From contig JAIUOC010000009.1 of NCBI GenBank assembly GCA_020161265.1, forward strand, positions 248,001-312,000: DNA of 64,000 bases, given 5' to 3'. The stretch comes from Chloroflexota bacterium. Lineage in GTDB: Bacteria; Chloroflexota; Chloroflexia; Chloroflexales; Herpetosiphonaceae. This document shows, piece by piece, positions 7,820 to 51,279 of this stretch. Positions within the stretch are counted from its first letter, which is position 1. Every line of letters starts with the position of its first letter. The position numbers and the translations under genes are program-made. The notes under the pieces were generated by a model. The model did not search any database, was not told the origin of the DNA, and worked only from the letters and a program-made list of their open reading frames with translations.

Positions 7820-10800
7820 ATGACGACTCCCTCCGGCTCGCAACTGATGTCCTTGCTGAGTACCTTACAAGATCAGCAAAACTATCAGAATCTCAATTGG
7901 GCTGGCTCTTTCCAGGATTATTTGGACATCGTGGCCAATAATCCCAAGGTCACCCGCAATGCCTTCCAACGGATCTACGACATGATTATGTCGTATGGCT
8001 TGGAAGAGTTCATCGATGCCAAGAAGAAGTTAATTCGTTATAACTTCTTTACCACCAACGAATTTGACGAGCAAGATGCCATCTTTGGCTTGGAAATCCC
8101 ATTAATGCGCTTGGTTAATTTCTTCAAGGCTGCGGCTCACGGCTATGGCACAGAAAAACGGGTGCTGTTGCTGCATGGTCCGGTTGGCTCAGCCAAATCA
8201 ACCATCGCCCGCCGACTGAAACGTGGTCTCGAACGCTATTCACGCAGTGAGGAAGGTGCGCTGTATACGTTCGATTGGTTTTTAGGCGATATCGAAGATC
8301 TCGACGCTGGTAGAGTCAAGGATGCCGATTGGGACCCCTGCCCAATGCACGAAGATCCCTTGCACTTGATTCCAATGGAAATGCGCGAGGCATTTTTAAA
8401 CGAATTCAATGCCAACCTCGAACCAGACGAGCATATTACCATTACTGGTGATCTTGATCCTTCTTGTCGCTATAATTTCCGCGATTTGATGCGTCGTTAC
8501 AATGGCGATTTTGCCAAAGTGCTGCGCCATGTCCGTGTTCGTCGCTTTGTCTTCTCTGAACAAGATCGCGTCGGTATCGGCACGTTTCAACCAAAAGACG
8601 AAAAGAATCAAGATAGCACTGAATTAACTGGCGATATTAATTATCGCAAGATTGCTATTTATGGTTCTGATAGCGATCCACGAGCATTTAGCTTCGATGG
8701 TGAATTTAATATTGCCAATCGTGGCATTATTGAATTTGTTGAAATGCTTAAGCTCGACACAGCATTTTTATACGATTTACTTGGTGCTTCTCAAGAACAT
8801 CGGATTAAATCCAAGAAGTTCGCACAAACTCACATCGATGAAGTTATCGTCGGGCATAGTGTAGCTGGTAATACCCCGATTCCTTATCGCTACAACGGCG
8901 TACCTGGCTGGACAACTTTGAAACAACTTTGCGCTCGATTCAACGCCGATAGCAGTGGTCTTGAGGTGCTATCGTTTGATTTCAATCGGGCCGCCACAAC
9001 TTGGACTCCGGTTAAAACTATTTTCCGCCATCGTTTCACTGGCGATCTGCTGACAACTTCGCAAAAGTGGGGGGTTGTTGAAACCACACCTAATCATTCG
9101 ATCTATTCACGTTCTGGCCAAACCTTCTTTCCTGAAGAGGGGCTTGAATTAGCCGCAGTGCGCTGGCTTGATGATGTGTGGATTAAGCCCGAAGCCCAAT
9201 GGCAGCCAATCGATGTGATTCAGGATATTGATGGCTTTATTCGCGATGATGTAGTACGTTTTGCTAATGGCGCTAAGTTGACCAAACCATGCCAACCTGG
9301 CTGGGCACGCCTCAATTTACCGCGCCATGCAACCCAAATTAAAGCAATTTATGACCCACAACACGACCAACAAGCACTTAAAGATCTCATCACGGTAATG
9401 GTTTGGTATGCCACTGAAGGTCATATCAACGGGCGTAATGGGGGCATTGTCATTAGCCAAAACGATCGTGATGAGTTAGAGCGAGTGCGGCAGGCTTATG
9501 CCAACATTACAACGGCCCATGGTTCAATCGATGCTGGAGCAAAAACCGATAATTGCTGGCGTTTGTACCTCAGCTCGCAAGCAATCGCGGCACTGGTTAA
9601 GCATCATTGTGGCGAACACTCTGAATTCAAGCGCTTACCCGATTTCTTATTCAATTTGCCCAAGCTATATCAACAACATGCCTTTGAAGAATTGATGCGC
9701 ACCGATGGCTCACGCAAAATAGCCCGCGCTGTTGGTGAAGTATGTAGCGATGAGTATCGCGATACATTCTTTGAATATAAAACGCTTTCATCGTTGCTAG
9801 CAACTCAAGTTGGCACGTTATCAACCTTGCTTGGCCATGATTACAGCGTTTATCGACTTGAACGCGAAGATCGTACTCCTGCCTATCGTGTGCGCTTCGT
9901 TTCTGGCTCGGGCAAACGAGGTGGCCGCCACAACCGCTTTGAAAACCGCTTAACCGCCCGACCAGTTGTCGATGAATGGGTCTATGATATTGAGTGCGAA
10001 GGTATTCATAATTTTGTCTGTGGCCTAGGTAACGTAGTTTGCCATAACACTAACGAACCAGAATTCCGTAAGCTTGAAAATAATGAGTTTATGGAAGCAT
10101 TAAAAGACCGTACTGTCCGAATTGATATCCCATACATTACGCGATTGCGTGATGAAATTCGAATTTACGAAAAGGATTTCAATTCAGAGAATGTACGGGT
10201 ACACATTGCGCCACATACCATCGAAGTTGCTGCAATGTGGGCAATCTTAACCCGACTTGAAGAACCAAAACGCGCTAATTTGACCTTATTGCAGAAAATG
10301 AAGCTTTACAATGGCAAATCATTGCCTGGCTTCACTGAAGATAATATCAAAGAACTGCGCAAAGAATCACGGCGTGAAGGTATGGAAGGCATCTCTCCAC
10401 GCTATATCCAAGACAAAATTAGCAATGCCTTGGTTAATTACCAAAGCGATGGCGGAATCAATCCATTTATGGTGATGAATGAGCTAGAAAGCGGCCTCAA
10501 AACCCACTCATTAATTACCAATGAAGAAGATCGCAAACGCTATCGCGAATTATTAGCAATTGTCAAAGAAGAGTACGCTGATATTGTTAAGAATGAAGTG
10601 CAACGCGCTATTTCGGCTGATGAAGAAGCCATCAAGCGTTTGTGCGCTAATTATATCGATAATATCAAAGCTTATACCCAACGCGAAAAAGTGCGGAATA
10701 AATTCACTGGAGCTTATGAAGAGCCAGATGAACGGCTGATGCGTTCGATCGAAGAAAAGATCGATATTCCCGATAATCGTAAAGATGATTTCCGCCGTGA

Positions 10801-11089
10801 AATTATGAATTACATCGGAGCATTAGCAATCGAAGGCAAGACCTTTGATTATCGCACGAATGAACGACTCCATCGGGCCTTGGAATTAAAACTCTTTGAG
10901 GATCAAAAAGACAGCATCAAACTAACCAGTTTAGTTTCAAGCGTTGTCGATAAAGATACTCAAGAAAAAATCGATGTGGTCAAAACCCGCTTAATTCGCG
11001 ATTTTGGCTATAACGATCAAAGTGCTACCGATGTGCTGAATTATGTTGCGAGTATTTTCGCTCGTGGCGATGCGACTCAGCGCAAGTAG
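7820..11089 (+). CDS. prkA: PrkA-type serine protein kinase (AAA+), interrupted by an intein
   Basis: Stress/sporulation-associated protein kinase of the PrkA/YeaG family: an AAA+ ATPase core with a C-terminal kinase-like PrkA domain. The precursor is 1089 residues. Walker A GPVGSAKS is at 120-127. The host sequence breaks after EVIVGH (341-346) and resumes at TNEPEF (744), so the spliced protein would be 692 residues, close to the usual PrkA length. The intervening 397 residues are an intein (separate entry). In the family PrkA works with a DUF444 protein and SpoVR, both encoded next in the same direction. GTAGGAGG six bases before ATG gives strong translation. Confidence 0.95.
8858..10048 (+). 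mobile_element. Intein with LAGLIDADG homing endonuclease domain, inside prkA
   Basis: In-frame insertion of 397 residues (347-743 of the precursor). It begins with Ser1 (SVAGNTPIP, block A); block B is TTPNHSI near 422-428; block F is [12 protein letters not shown] (721-732); block G ends NVVCHN with the His-Asn pair at 742-743; and the +1 residue is Thr744. These are the residues needed for self-splicing with a Ser/Thr acyl-shift route. Between the splicing blocks are two LAGLIDADG-like helices, [12 protein letters not shown] (523-534, acidic E533) and [10 protein letters not shown] (622-631, acidic D629), so a homing endonuclease is present and looks intact. No frameshift or stop is seen. 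Confidence 0.93.
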
Positions 11090-11169
11090 GCTCGGACACA
11101 GCGAACGGATTCAATGAGGCATCCGTTCGCTTGCGTGCGTTCCTTCCACTAACAATCAACGGTGAGCCT

Positions 11170-12273
11170 ATGCAACGAGTTGAACGTGATCTCAATCGCT
11201 TCCGCCAAATTGTGCGGGGCAAAATTAAGAAAGATCTACGCAAATATATTTCCCACGGTGAGATGATTGGCCGCCAAGGCAAACGCTTGGTCTCGATCCC
11301 TGTACCATCAATCGATTTGCCGCGCTTTCGCTTTGGCAAAAATCAAGGTGGGGTTGGGCAGGGCGAGGGTGATAACGGCGACCCAATCGGGCGTGGCGAT
11401 GGCTCGCAGCCAGGCGCAGGCGAGGCTGGCGAAGATTCAGGCCAACATTCGCTTGATGTCGAAATGACGATCGAAGAACTGGCGCAGTTGTTGGGCGAAG
11501 AACTGCAATTGCCCAATATTCAACCCAAAGGTAGCAAGAATATTATCTCGCAAAAAGATAAATATTCGGGCATTACCAAGGTTGGCCCAAACTCGCTCCG
11601 TCACTTCAAACGTTCTTTCCGCGAAGCGCTCAAACGCCAAGTCGCCTCTGGTCAGTACGATCCTGATGATCCGGTGGTGGTGCCAATTCGCGATGATATG
11701 CGCTTTCGCACCTGGAAAACCACCGAAATGCCTGAAAGCAACGCCGTGATCATCTATAGCATGGATGTTTCTGGCTCAATGGGTCAGGAGCAAAAGGAGC
11801 TAGTACGGGTAACCGCATTTTGGATCGAAACTTGGCTGCGTTCCCAATACAAACATCTAGAAATGCGCTACATCGTGCACGATGCAGCAGCCAAAGAGGT
11901 CACTCAGGATATTTTCTATCGCATTCGCGAGGGTGGCGGAACCAAAATTTCGTCGGCCTATCGCTTGGTATTGAAACTGATCGAGGAGCATTATTCGCCC
12001 GACGAGTGGAATATTTACCCCTTCCATTTTTCCGATGGCGATAATTGGGGCGGTGGCGATACCCGTGAGTGTGTTGAGCTACTGCGCAACCAAATTTTGC
12101 CCAAAGTCAACCTTTTCTGTTACGGCCAAGTGCGTTCGTTGTATGGATCAGGGCGTTTTGCCCATGATCTGAACGAAAATTTTCGAGCCAACGAAACCAT
12201 GGTCGTTTCCGAAATTGCCGACCGCGACGATATTTACAATGCAATCAAAGCCTTTTTAGGCAAAGGCAAATAG
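11170..12273 (+). CDS. yhbH: DUF444 / YhbH-YeaH family protein
   Basis: Partner of PrkA in the conserved PrkA-DUF444-SpoVR module; biochemical role is not established. 367 residues: a basic N-terminus ([18 protein letters not shown]), a Gly/Asp-rich low-complexity linker (about 60-95), and a C-terminal von Willebrand A-like fold whose MIDAS motif is seen as DVSGSMG near residue 200. Start chosen at the ATG at 11170, behind GGTGAG; an in-frame TTG at 11131 has no better site. It follows prkA by 80 bases. Confidence 0.9.
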
Positions 12274-12275
12274 AA

Positions 12276-12303
12276 GGATGAAGGATGAGGGATGAAGGAT
12301 GAA
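12276..12303 (+). repeat. Left heptamer array (GGATGAA x4) of an S23-gene cassette
   Basis: Four tandem heptamers GGATGAA, GGATGAG, GGATGAA, GGATGAA starting three bases after the yhbH stop. The complement of this array recurs at 12841-12868, so the two form an imperfect 28-base inverted repeat with three mismatches. Confidence 0.85.
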
Positions 12304-12349
12304 GAATGCTAGCTGAAATTGAAAGGTATTTAGGTTTCAGCTAGCATTC
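12304..12349 (+). repeat. Perfect 15-base inverted repeat before the S23 gene
   Basis: GAATGCTAGCTGAAA (12304-12318) pairs perfectly with TTTCAGCTAGCATTC (12335-12349) across a 16-base loop. It abuts the heptamer array directly. It has no T-run after it, so it is not a standard terminator; it may be an RNA hairpin or part of a mobile cassette end. Confidence 0.7.
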
Positions 12350-12374
12350 AATTCAAATTGGGAGGATCGTAACT

Positions 12375-12785
12375 ATGCAAAATGCTGTTGGCCGTGATGA
12401 TTTACGTCAGCGCACAACCCGTTTTGCACTGCAAATTATCCAATGTTATGGTTCATTGCCAAGTCGAGTCGAAGCAACAATTCTAGGCAAACAACTCCTA
12501 CGTTCAGGGACATCAGTCGGGGCAAATTACCGAGAGGCCCATCGCTCACGTTCAAATAGCGAGTTTGTGGCAAAGCTTGGCATTTGCCTGCAAGAACTTG
12601 AAGAAACCGACTACTGGCTTGAATTATTATTTTTAGCTAACCTTCAAACTTCTACAATCATTAATCCATTACGCGATGAAACATCGCAATTAATCGCTAT
12701 TTTTACAACAATTGTTAAGAAGAAACGCTTGCAGCTTAAAGAACCAGTTACAACTTATGATTTCGATGATTACGAAGATTCATAA
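12375..12785 (+). CDS. Four-helix-bundle protein (S23 / TIGR02436-like)
   Basis: 136 residues, all-helical, with the family pattern: Arg-Thr-x-x-Phe-Ala at the start, QLLRSGTSVGANYREAHRS around residues 37-57, EFVAKLGICLQELEETDYWL around 61-80, and a final basic helix. Relatives are encoded in intervening sequences of some 23S rRNAs, and a structural cousin is the Avd accessory protein of diversity-generating retroelements; as a stand-alone gene its role is unknown. GGGAGG lies before the ATG. It sits between yhbH and spoVR, a place where no gene is expected, flanked by inverted heptamer arrays, so it is probably a late insertion. Confidence 0.88.
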   Translation: MQNAVGRDDLRQRTTRFALQIIQCYGSLPSRVEATILGKQLLRSGTSVGANYREAHRSRSNSEFVAKLGICLQELEETDYWLELLFLANLQTSTIINPLRDETSQLIAIFTTIVKKKRLQLKEPVTTYDFDDYEDS

Positions 12786-12840
12786 GGAAAGATAATATGA
12801 ATGGTCATAGAATGAATCTATTTATCCTTCTATAAATATA

Positions 12841-12868
12841 TTCATCCTTCATCCTTCATATTTCATCC
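12841..12868 (-). repeat. Right heptamer array (TTCATCC x4) of the S23-gene cassette
   Basis: TTCATCC, TTCATCC, TTCATAT, TTCATCC: the inverted counterpart of the array at 12276-12303 (25 of 28 positions match). It ends 17 bases before the spoVR start. Confidence 0.85.
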
Positions 12869-12885
12869 TTTCAAAGAGAGGTTCT

Positions 12886-14388
12886 ATGCCACTCAGCAAC
12901 AACGATTTACCCCTCAATTTACAAAAAGCATGGGAGCAAATTGATGGCCATGCCAAACGTTATGGCCTCGATTACTACCCAATTGTTTATCAAATCCTTG
13001 ATTATAATACACTGTACGAAGTTGCTGCAATGGGTGGCTTTCCAACACGCTACCCGCATTGGCGCTTCGGAATGGAGTATGATCAATTAATCAAGGGCCA
13101 TGTGTATGGATTAAGCATCATTTATGAAATGGTGATTAATACAAATCCAGTGTATGCCTATTTGCTCGAAGGCAATATGATTGTTGATCAGAAAACGGTG
13201 ATGGCGCACGTTGCCGGCCATGCCGATTTCTTCAAGAATAATATGTGGTTTGCGCCAACCAATCGTAAAATGCTCGATACCATGGCCAATCATGCTGGGC
13301 GAGTACAACGCTATATCGATCGCTATGGCTACGAAACGGTTGAAGCATTTATTGATACTTGTTTATCAATTGAAAACTTGATCGATTATCACTCGCCATA
13401 TATTAATCGCCCTGAAGCCCAAACGAGCCAGCCAATCGTTGAAGATGACGATATTGAAGTTGCTGAAGGCTTGCCGTTTGAACGTTCGTATATGAAGGAT
13501 TTTATTAATCCACCAGAATTTTTACGCCAGCAACGCGAAAAACTCTTAGAAGAACAGCAAAAAATGCGTAAATTCCCCGAAAATCCGCAAAAAGATGTGC
13601 TGTTGTTCTTGATGAATTATGCGCCGCTTGATCGTTGGCAGCATAATATTTTGGAAATTGTACGCGACGAGGCCTATTACTTCGCTCCGCAAGGCATGAC
13701 CAAAATTATCAATGAAGGCTGGGCCAGCTTTTGGCATAGTCGAATTATGACTACTCATGCCGCCGAAACCTCAGAAATTATCGATTTTGCCGACCACCAC
13801 GCCGGAATTGTCGCAGCTCATCCAGGCCGACTAAACCCCTATCGTTTAGGTTTACTGCTGCTGCGCGACATCGAAGATCGCTGGAATCGTGGGCGCTTTG
13901 GCAAGGATTGGGAACAATGCGACGATATGCGCGAAAAGCGCGAATGGGATCTTAAGCTTGGCAAGGGTATGGAAAAAGTCTTCGAGGTGCGGCGCTTCCA
14001 CAACGATATTACCTTTCTCGACGAGTTTCTTACGCCTGAATTTTGTGTCGAGAACAAGCTATTTACCTTCAAACACAACAACGACACCGATTTGTATGAG
14101 ATCGTCAATCGTGATTTTGGTGCAATTAAATCGCAGTTGCTGAGTGGATTAACCAATTTCGGCCAACCCTATATTTATGTTGAAGATGGCAATTACAATA
14201 ATCGGGGCGAATTGTATTTGCGCCATCGCCATGAAGGTAGCGATTTGCGCATGGATTATGCTCGTGACACGCTCAAGCATATTCATACAATCTGGACACG
14301 TCCGGTCAATCTTGAAACTGTGCTCGATGATAAAAAACGCTTGTTGACCTTCGATGGGAAAGAATACAGCGAACGCCGCATCGATTAA
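12886..14388 (+). CDS. spoVR: SpoVR family protein
   Basis: 500-residue SpoVR/YcgB protein, third member of the PrkA-DUF444-SpoVR module. In Bacillus SpoVR affects spore cortex formation; in non-sporulating bacteria the module is linked to starvation and stress, with unknown biochemistry. The family-typical segments [15 protein letters not shown] and [18 protein letters not shown] are present in the middle of the protein. GAGAGG precedes the ATG. It is cut off from yhbH by the inserted S23 cassette, yet remains co-directional. Confidence 0.93.
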
Positions 14389-19747: not shown

Positions 19748-19802
19748 GGTTAGCCTCAGCTCGCATGTTTGCCCCAGACCGCTGCGTTAACATCCCTCAT
19801 AA

Positions 19803-19820
19803 TTCATCCTTCATCCTTGC
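19803..19820 (-). repeat. Short TTCATCC heptamer copy
   Basis: TTCATCC twice in tandem, preceded by CATCCCTCATAA. Same repeat family as the arrays at 12276-12303 and 12841-12868. It lies just past the AT-rich glycosyltransferase gene. Confidence 0.6.
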
Positions 19821-19874
19821 TTAAAACAGGCTACAATACCTTCAATCAACTCTTTTTGTGTGAGGCTTTTGCTA

Positions 19875-41083: not shown

Positions 41084-41116
41084 AAGGCTATGGGCTATAG
41101 GCTTTTGGCTATAAGC
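41084..41116. repeat. GGCTATAG-type tandem repeat
   Basis: AGGCTATGGGCTATAGGC followed by TTTTGGCTATAAGC; related words recur at about 41160-41180, 36437-36450 and 3285-3350, always between genes. Confidence 0.5.
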
Positions 41117-49965: not shown

Positions 49966-51279
49966 TTAGTCGCAGTGGCCTGGGCCAATTACGCCATTGT
50001 TGAAGTTATCCAATTGGGTGGCGTAGCTTGTGCCAGTGTTAGAAGCTGCGCCACTTGGTTTGCTGCCCAATGGATATTGTTGCAACCAAGCGTCAGCAGC
50101 AGCGATCGTTGCATTAACCGTGCTGCCATTAGCACCTTGAGCAACATTCAACTTGGCGGCGATCAATTGGTGAGCCAAGATGTAGGTGGCATCACCACGT
50201 GGCGAGGTGTTGAAAATTGCCATCAATTGGCTTTGGCTATAAACCACACCACCAATGCTCAAGCTAGTAACTGGCCAAGCACTTGGGTGATTCTTCCAGT
50301 AGCCTTGGGTATAGGTACAATCTTTACCAGTAGGCGTGCTGGTTGGAGTTGGCGCTGGTGTTCTGGTGGCAGTCGGCGCTGGTGTCTTGGTCGCGGTTGG
50401 CGCTGGCGTGCTAGTTGCCGTTGGCGCTGGTGTCTTAGTCGCGGTTGGGACTGGTGTCTTGGTCGCGGTTGGCACAGCGGTTGGCGTTGGGTAGGCCGTT
50501 GGTTCTGGCGTGTTGGTTGGCGCAACCGTTGGCTCAGCCGTTGGTTCTGGCGTGTTGGTTGGCTCAGGTGTTGGCTCAACTGTTGGTTCTGGCGTGTTGG
50601 TTGGCTCAGGTGTTGGCTCAACTGTTGGTTCTGGTGTATTGGTTGGGGCAACTGTTGGCTCAGCCGTTGGTTCTGGTGTGTTGGTTGGAGTTGTTACGCC
50701 ACAATAGTTGGTTCCGCCAAGGTGGCGAGATGAGAGCAAGCGCTCGCCATAGCGTTGACCATCGAGCGAGTGCAATACAGGCCCATAGAACACATCAATT
50801 TGGGCAGCACATTCAGGCGCTGCAACACTTAAAGAAACAGTTGTTTTTGGGCCAACTCGGCCAATTGCCCACGAATAAATCAATTGATGATCAATGATTT
50901 CATCAAATTTTTGATACGAAGCCATACCTACATCGTAGGAGCAGGTAGTTGATTTATTCCAAATTTTGCCGACGTTATTGCTTGAGAACCAACCCGAAAG
51001 ATCAGCCTTTGGGTCACAGACTGGAGCTACGGTTGGAGCTGCGGTTTCGGTTGGAGCTGCGGTTGGGGCTGTAGTTGCCGTTGGCGCAACCGTTGGTTCT
51101 GCCGTTGGCTCAGCCGTTGGAGCTGCGGTTGGTTCTGCCGTTGGTTCAACGACTGTCTCAACACTGACTGATTCTACGCCTTTGCTCACATTGGCAAAGC
51201 TGGCACTTGGCCCACTTGCCACCAAAATTGTTGCAAGTAGCACAACCCGCGTTGTCCATCGTCGCAGTGTCGGGGTCAT
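49966..51279 (-). CDS. Secreted protein with Pro/Thr repeats and a C-terminal TQGYWKNHP domain
   Basis: 437 residues: signal peptide (about 8-28), a PTAEPTxAPT stretch (about 40-85), a globular beta domain with two Cys pairs (about 88-205), a long PT repeat (about 205-335), and a C-terminal domain starting [15 protein letters not shown]. The last domain is met in secreted proteins of many bacteria and has no known activity. The PT region would be an extended, probably glycosylated stalk. AAGGAG lies five bases before the ATG. Direct repeats upstream may mark regulator sites. Confidence 0.85.
50338..50695. repeat. In-frame tandem repeats coding PT-rich stalk
   Basis: Two arrays: a 24-base unit (about 50338-50480, coding PAPTATKT-like octads) and a 42-base unit (about 50500-50695, coding [14 protein letters not shown]-like 14-mers). 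Such arrays change length easily by slippage or recombination. Confidence 0.8.

Follow-up and report, generated by a model that had tools for sequence, protein, structure and literature searches.

An S23 gene cassette with inverted heptamer ends in a Herpetosiphon prkA operon: a probable mobile element akin to 23S rRNA intervening sequences

A cassette of about 597 nt, made of one small S23 gene between inverted heptamer arrays, lies between yhbH and spoVR in the prkA operon of a Herpetosiphon-type bacterium. It is probably a compact mobile element of the selfish type, the counterpart in an mRNA operon of the S23-encoding intervening sequences (IVSs) of 23S rRNA. S23 genes of several phyla are recurrently bracketed by inverted arrays, mostly of 7- or 8-nt units, and at the yhbH-spoVR site the cassette has been exchanged precisely, together with its arms. 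The stretch of DNA analysed (hereafter, the window) comprises 64,000 nt of a 6.04-Mb genome (G000), whose nearest named relatives in the collection used are H. llansteffanensis and H. giganteus.

Organization of the Cassette

The features of the cassette and its two flanking genes are collected in Table 1. The arms, of 30 nt each, are separated by 537 nt and are 90% complementary, with three mismatches. The tandem heptamers extend over 12273-12308 (5.1 units) on the left and over 12841-12870 (4.3 units) on the right, and the units within the arms vary, the left array including GGATGAG and the right one TTCATAT. The hairpin that follows the left arm is built on a perfect 15-bp stem (12304-12318 / 12335-12349). 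Among Herpetosiphon species, the pairing of this hairpin is kept through changes on both sides, as seen from sequences and folds. An S23 four-helix-bundle gene between yhbH and spoVR, inverted GGATGAA ends with three mismatches and a perfect 15-base hairpin had all been described in a first, sequence-only reading of the window, and all three descriptions hold.

Table 1. Positions of the cassette features and of the flanking host genes in the window.
Feature	Position	Strand	Basis and remarks
yhbH (DUF444), flanking host gene	11131..12273	+	profile match
Left arm, about 5 GGATGAA-type heptamers	12274..12303	+	directly 3' of the yhbH stop codon; sequence, repeat search, alignment
Hairpin between the left arm and the S23 ribosome-binding site	12304..12349	+	15 bp perfect at base
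S23 ribosome-binding site, GGGAGGA	12360..12366	+	read from sequence
S23 / IVP four-helix-bundle gene, 136 aa	12375..12785	+	profile match, structure model, dN/dS
Right arm, inverted heptamer array	12841..12870	-	TTCATCC on + strand; ends just 5' of the spoVR ribosome-binding site
spoVR, flanking host gene	12886..14388	+	profile match

Such an arrangement is rare in the scanned part of this genome. The analysis drew on 789 kb of G000 and, for the relatives, on syntenic blocks. Gene-sized intervals with inverted arms scoring at least 20 were found at two places in these 789 kb, one of which is the cassette. The sole other strong inverted match around a gene-sized interval is at G000:C2:158201-158730. 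Across the window, the matches above the Rfam gathering thresholds amount to one tRNA only, and the cassette, being between yhbH and spoVR, is not located in a 23S rRNA gene.

The S23 Protein

The product of the gene is a member of the S23 / IVP family, with profile matches above the curated cut-offs for PF05635 (E 1.1e-19, 71.1 bits for a cut-off of 33.8) and for TIGR02436 (E 7e-26, 90.6 bits for a cut-off of 24). PF05635 was the sole family returned by the Pfam search of the gene, which gave no RAYT tyrosine transposase. With dN/dS at about 0.06-0.08, the gene evolves under strong purifying selection. To our knowledge, the S23/IVP family is widespread in bacteria and has solved structures, and no function is known for it.

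The AlphaFold2 monomer model (pLDDT 89) is a four-helix bundle. In a Foldseek search, it matched 2rld and 2gsc (E 4.8e-7, TMt 0.92). It also matched, more weakly, Avd (4dwl), at about 15% identity in the structural alignment, as well as ribonucleoprotein structures of diversity-generating retroelements (DGRs). The likeness to 23S rRNA insertions and to Avd, suggested at the outset, was therefore apt. The entries 2rld and 2gsc list chains A-E, and the closest structures, 4dwl included, list A-E or B-E. In addition, the S23 protein of Xanthomonas is cited as a toroidal homopentamer (PMC4990558).

Inverted Arrays Around S23 Genes in Several Phyla

Arms were searched for at 136 S23 loci. Herpetosiphon contributed 11 of them and other Chloroflexota 88; a further 21 belong to Verrucomicrobiota, Planctomycetota, Lentisphaerota, Kiritimatiellota and Bacteroidota, and 16 are carried by plasmids, most of which are cyanobacterial. 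The loci outside Chloroflexota come from one genome-collection scan plus the plasmids. The arm score was defined as the best ungapped inverted match between 400-nt flanks, and 760 intervals of the same loci served as controls. A match of at least 15 was found at 85% of the S23 loci vs 2.2% of the control intervals, and a match of at least 20 at 54% vs 0%. With a non-redundant set of 47 proteins less than 60% identical, the proportions were still 81% and 49%, respectively. Self-similarity of the arms was strongest at a lag of 7 in 104 of 122 arms and at a lag of 8 in 12 others. There are exceptions, as some S23 loci lack arms and as the heptamers are reversed at L050 and L295. Chance or simple low complexity was also considered and is ruled out by the control intervals and by reversed-pattern controls, which gave 0 in the Herpetosiphon counts. 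The link between S23 genes and heptamer arrays is provisionally regarded as new: the open-access literature, to which the search was confined, yielded no paper tying S23 genes in general to heptamer arrays.

The heptamer itself varies by locus (GGATGAA, TAGAACA, CAGCNNT, AATTCGT, ACTGATA, GGCTATT and others). Its similarity between loci rises with the identity of the S23 proteins; for pairs below 75% identity, and in a test that shared ancestry inflates, the Mantel rho was 0.249, the maximum of 2000 permutations being 0.083 (p<=0.0005). The tracking is mostly seen when the units are compared in matching orientation with respect to the gene (rho 0.089 for the reversed orientation), and it persists with non-redundant proteins (rho 0.150, p=0.0025). 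For instance, the PVC S23 proteins that are 54-62% identical to that of the window mostly have NNATGAA-like units in the same orientation. Unit length follows the protein as well: the nearest protein neighbour has 8-nt units for 9 of 12 loci with 8-nt units vs 1 of 104 loci with 7-nt units (Fisher p=3e-10, with the same inflation by ancestry). Nevertheless, the arms are non-coding, and neutral DNA should lose its similarity at 50-60% protein identity. This would count against ancestry alone, although the caveat stays.

The arms contain a median of 4.9 units, for 7-nt and 8-nt units alike. Because the solved relatives have five chains, a model in which one repeat unit would be read per S23 subunit is attractive.

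Exchange of Cassettes at the yhbH-spoVR Site

Each of the six Herpetosiphon genomes examined has an S23 gene between yhbH and spoVR. Those of G004 and G006 are 85-86% identical to that of G000 and have GGATGAA arms, and those of G002, G005 and G003 are just 52-54% identical to it, with arms of an AGTCAAA/AAGGC type. The flanks of G002 and G005 are nonetheless 93-96% identical to those of G000. The alignment of G000 with G002 breaks at 12273, the end of the yhbH stop codon, and that with G005 at 12275, and both resume at 12868; with G003, the breaks are at 12273 and 12868. A tree of yhbH plus spoVR separates G000, G002 and G005 from G003, G004 and G006, and places G003 beside G004. This tree is discordant with the cassette type, which must therefore have switched at least twice.

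Of the 38 informative sites within 300 nt on each side of the cassette, 16 agree with the division into the two flank clades and none with the cassette type. The T/C difference at the very end of the right arm follows the flank clade, too. Together with the positions of the breaks at the arm ends, this shows that the cassette was exchanged along with its arms and with next to no flanking sequence. Between clades, synonymous divergence within each cassette type is 0.8-1.2, as compared with 0.4-1.0 for the flanking genes, which puts the age of both types at about that of the genus or more. Invariable presence at this place had been put forward as an observation that would speak against mobility. 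The place is indeed constant within Herpetosiphon, but two very different cassettes have replaced each other there, so that a constant place does not mean immobility.

The sequence-only reading took yhbH and spoVR to be normally neighbours, and in 17 relatives outside the genus that have the two genes together, the site is empty: the spacer measures 12-287 nt (12-95 nt in 16 of them) and contains no S23, the values for the sister genera G008 and G007 being 54 and 55 nt. In three of these relatives (L216, L220 and L232), the S23-free spacer holds a short inverted array built on a different unit. The proposal of a mobile element is upheld in part, as regards the discrete cassette with its inverted ends, the empty sites and the precise exchange; a target-site duplication, sought by comparing junctions, was seen in none of the congeners, and the empty sites of the sister genera are too diverged to align. 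No movement of the cassette was observed, and S23A, its gene, is at a single site in all six Herpetosiphon genomes.

Two further S23 paralogues occur in Herpetosiphon. Between pheA and cimA, G000, G003 and G006 have a paralogue, S23B, with TAGAACA arms. At the same site, G004 and G005 have remnants of TAGAACA arms around a non-coding palindromic insert, and G002 has another insert, without TAGAACA arms. The palindromic insert of L312 (G005) and L316 (G004) measures about 130 nt and reads CCCTCACCCC...GGGGTGAGGG. A third paralogue, S23C, has inverted ends of a GGGGATC type and shows decay in two genomes, being frameshifted in G006 and truncated in G003.

Position in Operons and a Possible Mechanism

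Among 102 elements for which both neighbours could be assessed, 79 (77%) are oriented like the two genes around them, which are themselves co-directional. Median distances are 1 nt from the upstream gene to the start of the left arm and 12 nt from the end of the right arm to the next gene; beyond this placement, no target motif was derived. The host operons are many, different and unrelated. Two plasmid copies of S23 are placed antisense between cas2 and cas1. More generally, plasmid S23 genes (L295-L311) are often found inside defence operons (helicase/methylase, restriction-modification, cas2/cas1 CRISPR, DISARM/BREX-type).

In the minimum free energy fold of the cassette RNA, the arms are paired and the ORF is inside (z -8.3). 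Complementarity of the arms as the main selected feature was considered and finds little support: it reaches 80% in register vs 72% with the units permuted, a modest excess over what the shared heptamer consensus gives. Hence, the RNA stem may not be the feature under selection.

The following mechanism can be proposed. In the operon transcript, the arms would form a paired stem some 30 bp long, from which the S23 message is looped out. Such looping-out would allow the operon to tolerate an insertion placed past a stop codon and ahead of the following ribosome-binding site. RNase III would probably cut the stem, and an S23 pentamer probably recognises the repeats, at about one unit per subunit. 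As S23 has no recognised catalytic domain, the chemistry is probably done by another enzyme, such as a reverse transcriptase, a recombinase or a replication enzyme.

Alternatively, the cassette may belong to a regulatory system of the host, in which S23 would be a TRAP-like RNA-binding ring that binds the scattered arrays in untranslated regions and is autoregulated through the arms around its own gene. The five or so units per arm in a pentameric family, the purifying selection on S23, the frequent co-directional location directly past an upstream stop codon and the intergenic position of the arrays would all fit. We consider this unlikely, however, since a very different cassette precisely replaces another at one site, since S23 can be antisense between cas2 and cas1, and since the genes occur patchily, with decay as in S23C, and in many unrelated operons.

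Relation to 23S rRNA Intervening Sequences and to Retroelements

Judged from its organization, the closest known element to the cassette is the S23-encoding IVS of 23S rRNA. In that of Coxiella burnetii, S23 is accompanied by a terminal stem of 28 bp, and GACAGAT heptamers lie at the start of S23; this IVS is removed by RNase III and has been called a selfish element (PMC4990558). In both types of element, the S23 ORF is enclosed by a terminal inverted repeat of some 28 bp, in whose loop it lies, and heptamers are found near the start of S23. They differ in size (428-444 nt for the rRNA IVSs vs about 597 nt) and in host transcript, as the cassette is in a protein operon and is therefore not an rRNA IVS by location. 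Moreover, unlike the IVSs, the cassette has a ribosome-binding site for its S23 gene, which is under purifying selection.

The fold in common with Avd of the diversity-generating retroelements raises a second alternative. The cassette would be a non-autonomous retroelement whose Avd-like S23 brings a reverse transcriptase, supplied in trans, to the heptamer-ended transcript for copying and insertion elsewhere. The matches to 4dwl and to the DGR ribonucleoprotein structures argue for it, and an approximately 800-aa protein with an RVT_1 match, a possible partner, occurs in the six Herpetosiphon genomes (in G000, L326 709-3069, G000:C2 near 192753). In contrast to the retroelements, no reverse transcriptase gene is adjacent to the cassette, and the only RVT_1 match of G000 is on contig C2 while the cassette is on C9. 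This scheme appears rather improbable. It is not fully exclusive of the preferred reading of a mobile element, within which it would be one possible mechanism.

Dispersed Heptamer Arrays

The 28-mer arm sequence has 188 matches in the genome G000 (at most three mismatches), as compared with none for the reversed control; the GGATGAA family 28-mer has none in three sister genera. Several heptamer families occur in the spacers of G000, and different families cluster in common spacers, the arrays being intergenic. When two arrays of the same family are close to each other, they are inverted in the S23-type orientation in 23 cases and never otherwise (GGATGAA 7:0, ARAARKC 10:0, TAGARCA 3:0, AATAGCC 3:0). 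In the sequence-only reading, arrays flanking unrelated genes equally often would have spoken against the proposal. Arrays do lie near many genes, singly or as closely spaced inverted pairs, but not around gene-sized intervals. In the window, arrays without a gene between inverted arms are found at 19790-19823 (GGATGAA type) and 41086-41113 (AATAGCC type). Outside the window, a short array pair at G000:C9:132591-132720 has kept its arms and its flanks between G000 and G005, while the spacer has strongly diverged.

The distribution of the arrays follows that of S23 in part. At least 10 hits of CAGCNNT arrays were obtained in 13 Chloroflexota genomes, of which 12 have S23, vs 75 of 251 overall (p 2.6e-6). 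In Herpetosiphon, GGATGAA counts are highest in the carriers of the GGATGAA-ended cassette (188, 357 and 340 vs 34, 170 and 100). The AATAGCC arrays of G000 have no matching S23 there; in L237, from another Chloroflexota genome, S23 is located between GGCTATT (= AATAGCC) arms in matching orientation. A strict one-to-one correspondence between heptamer family and S23 gene within Herpetosiphon was also considered and is unsupported, because the counts of families B and D track neither S23 type nor S23 presence. In the least probable alternative, the arrays would be dispersed hairpin repeats in their own right, moved by other means, between which S23 tends to be captured, and the swap in Herpetosiphon would be due to ordinary homologous recombination. 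This would agree with the orphan AATAGCC arrays, the clustering of several families in common spacers and the short arrays of other units at S23-free yhbH-spoVR sites, but is quite improbable given that unit sequence and length co-vary with S23 across phyla, that arm-bracketed gene-sized intervals are almost exclusive to S23 in the scanned part of G000, that the exchange boundaries coincide with the arm ends without any flank site following the cassette, and that L237 supplies an S23 for the AATAGCC unit.

Under the mobile-element reading, the cassette, for which the sequence-only reading had suggested a non-autonomous element, looks like a coding member, and the short array pairs like non-coding members, of the same group, and the scattered short pairs would be non-coding derivatives relying on S23-type proteins. 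This recalls the REPIN/RAYT system (PMC3116915), in which a gene is likewise tied to inverted short repeats, dispersed inverted doublets have short spacers, and several repeat families per genome are tied to protein types. Here, however, the protein is an S23 four-helix bundle, and the repeats are tandem 7/8-mers rather than REP palindromes.

Dispersed heptamers have been described before. TAACTGA is known from Beggiatoaceae, cyanobacteria and Bacteroidetes, where 'no mechanism is evident' (PMC4679880), and GGGAATC and GGGGA(T/C)T from Xanthomonas and Nostoc, respectively (PMC4692102). Like the present arrays, they are tandem heptamers of intergenic regions and are in part arranged as inverted pairs. 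The text of these two papers mentions no associated protein, no S23 and no four helix. The TAACTGA unit brackets S23 in L269, and GGGGATC-type units bracket the Herpetosiphon S23C. The association and the co-variation thus tie the S23/IVP family to dispersed heptamer repeats that had long been described without an agent.

This raises the possibility of a single large and unrecognised class of bacterial mobile elements, made up of the S23 genes that have inverted 7/8-mer arms. In such a class, a ring would read the array at about one unit per subunit and would mobilise the short pairs in trans; the class would be the source of the dispersed heptamers of cyanobacteria, Xanthomonas, Beggiatoa and others, and would include the 23S rRNA IVSs. 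We hold this wider view tentatively, with slightly less than even confidence. If the S23 pentamer binds five copies of its own repeat unit but not those of another family, this would define a mode of recognising the ends of an element, by a ring protein that reads an array of repeats, and the rRNA IVSs would be members of a much larger class that can likewise settle in protein operons, including those for defence.

Other Observations

PrkA (gene 7820-11089) has an in-frame intein-like insert of about 390 aa at 8858-10049 of the window, present in G003 and G006 and missing in G002, G005 and G004 according to the alignment. The SpoVR of the window has no insert of the kind found in several relatives from the order (L222-L231), where 300-400 aa or so, probably an intein, are inserted in frame at about residue 290. 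Finally, long tandem repeats of 12-72 nt at 50333-51148 of the window probably encode a repeat protein.
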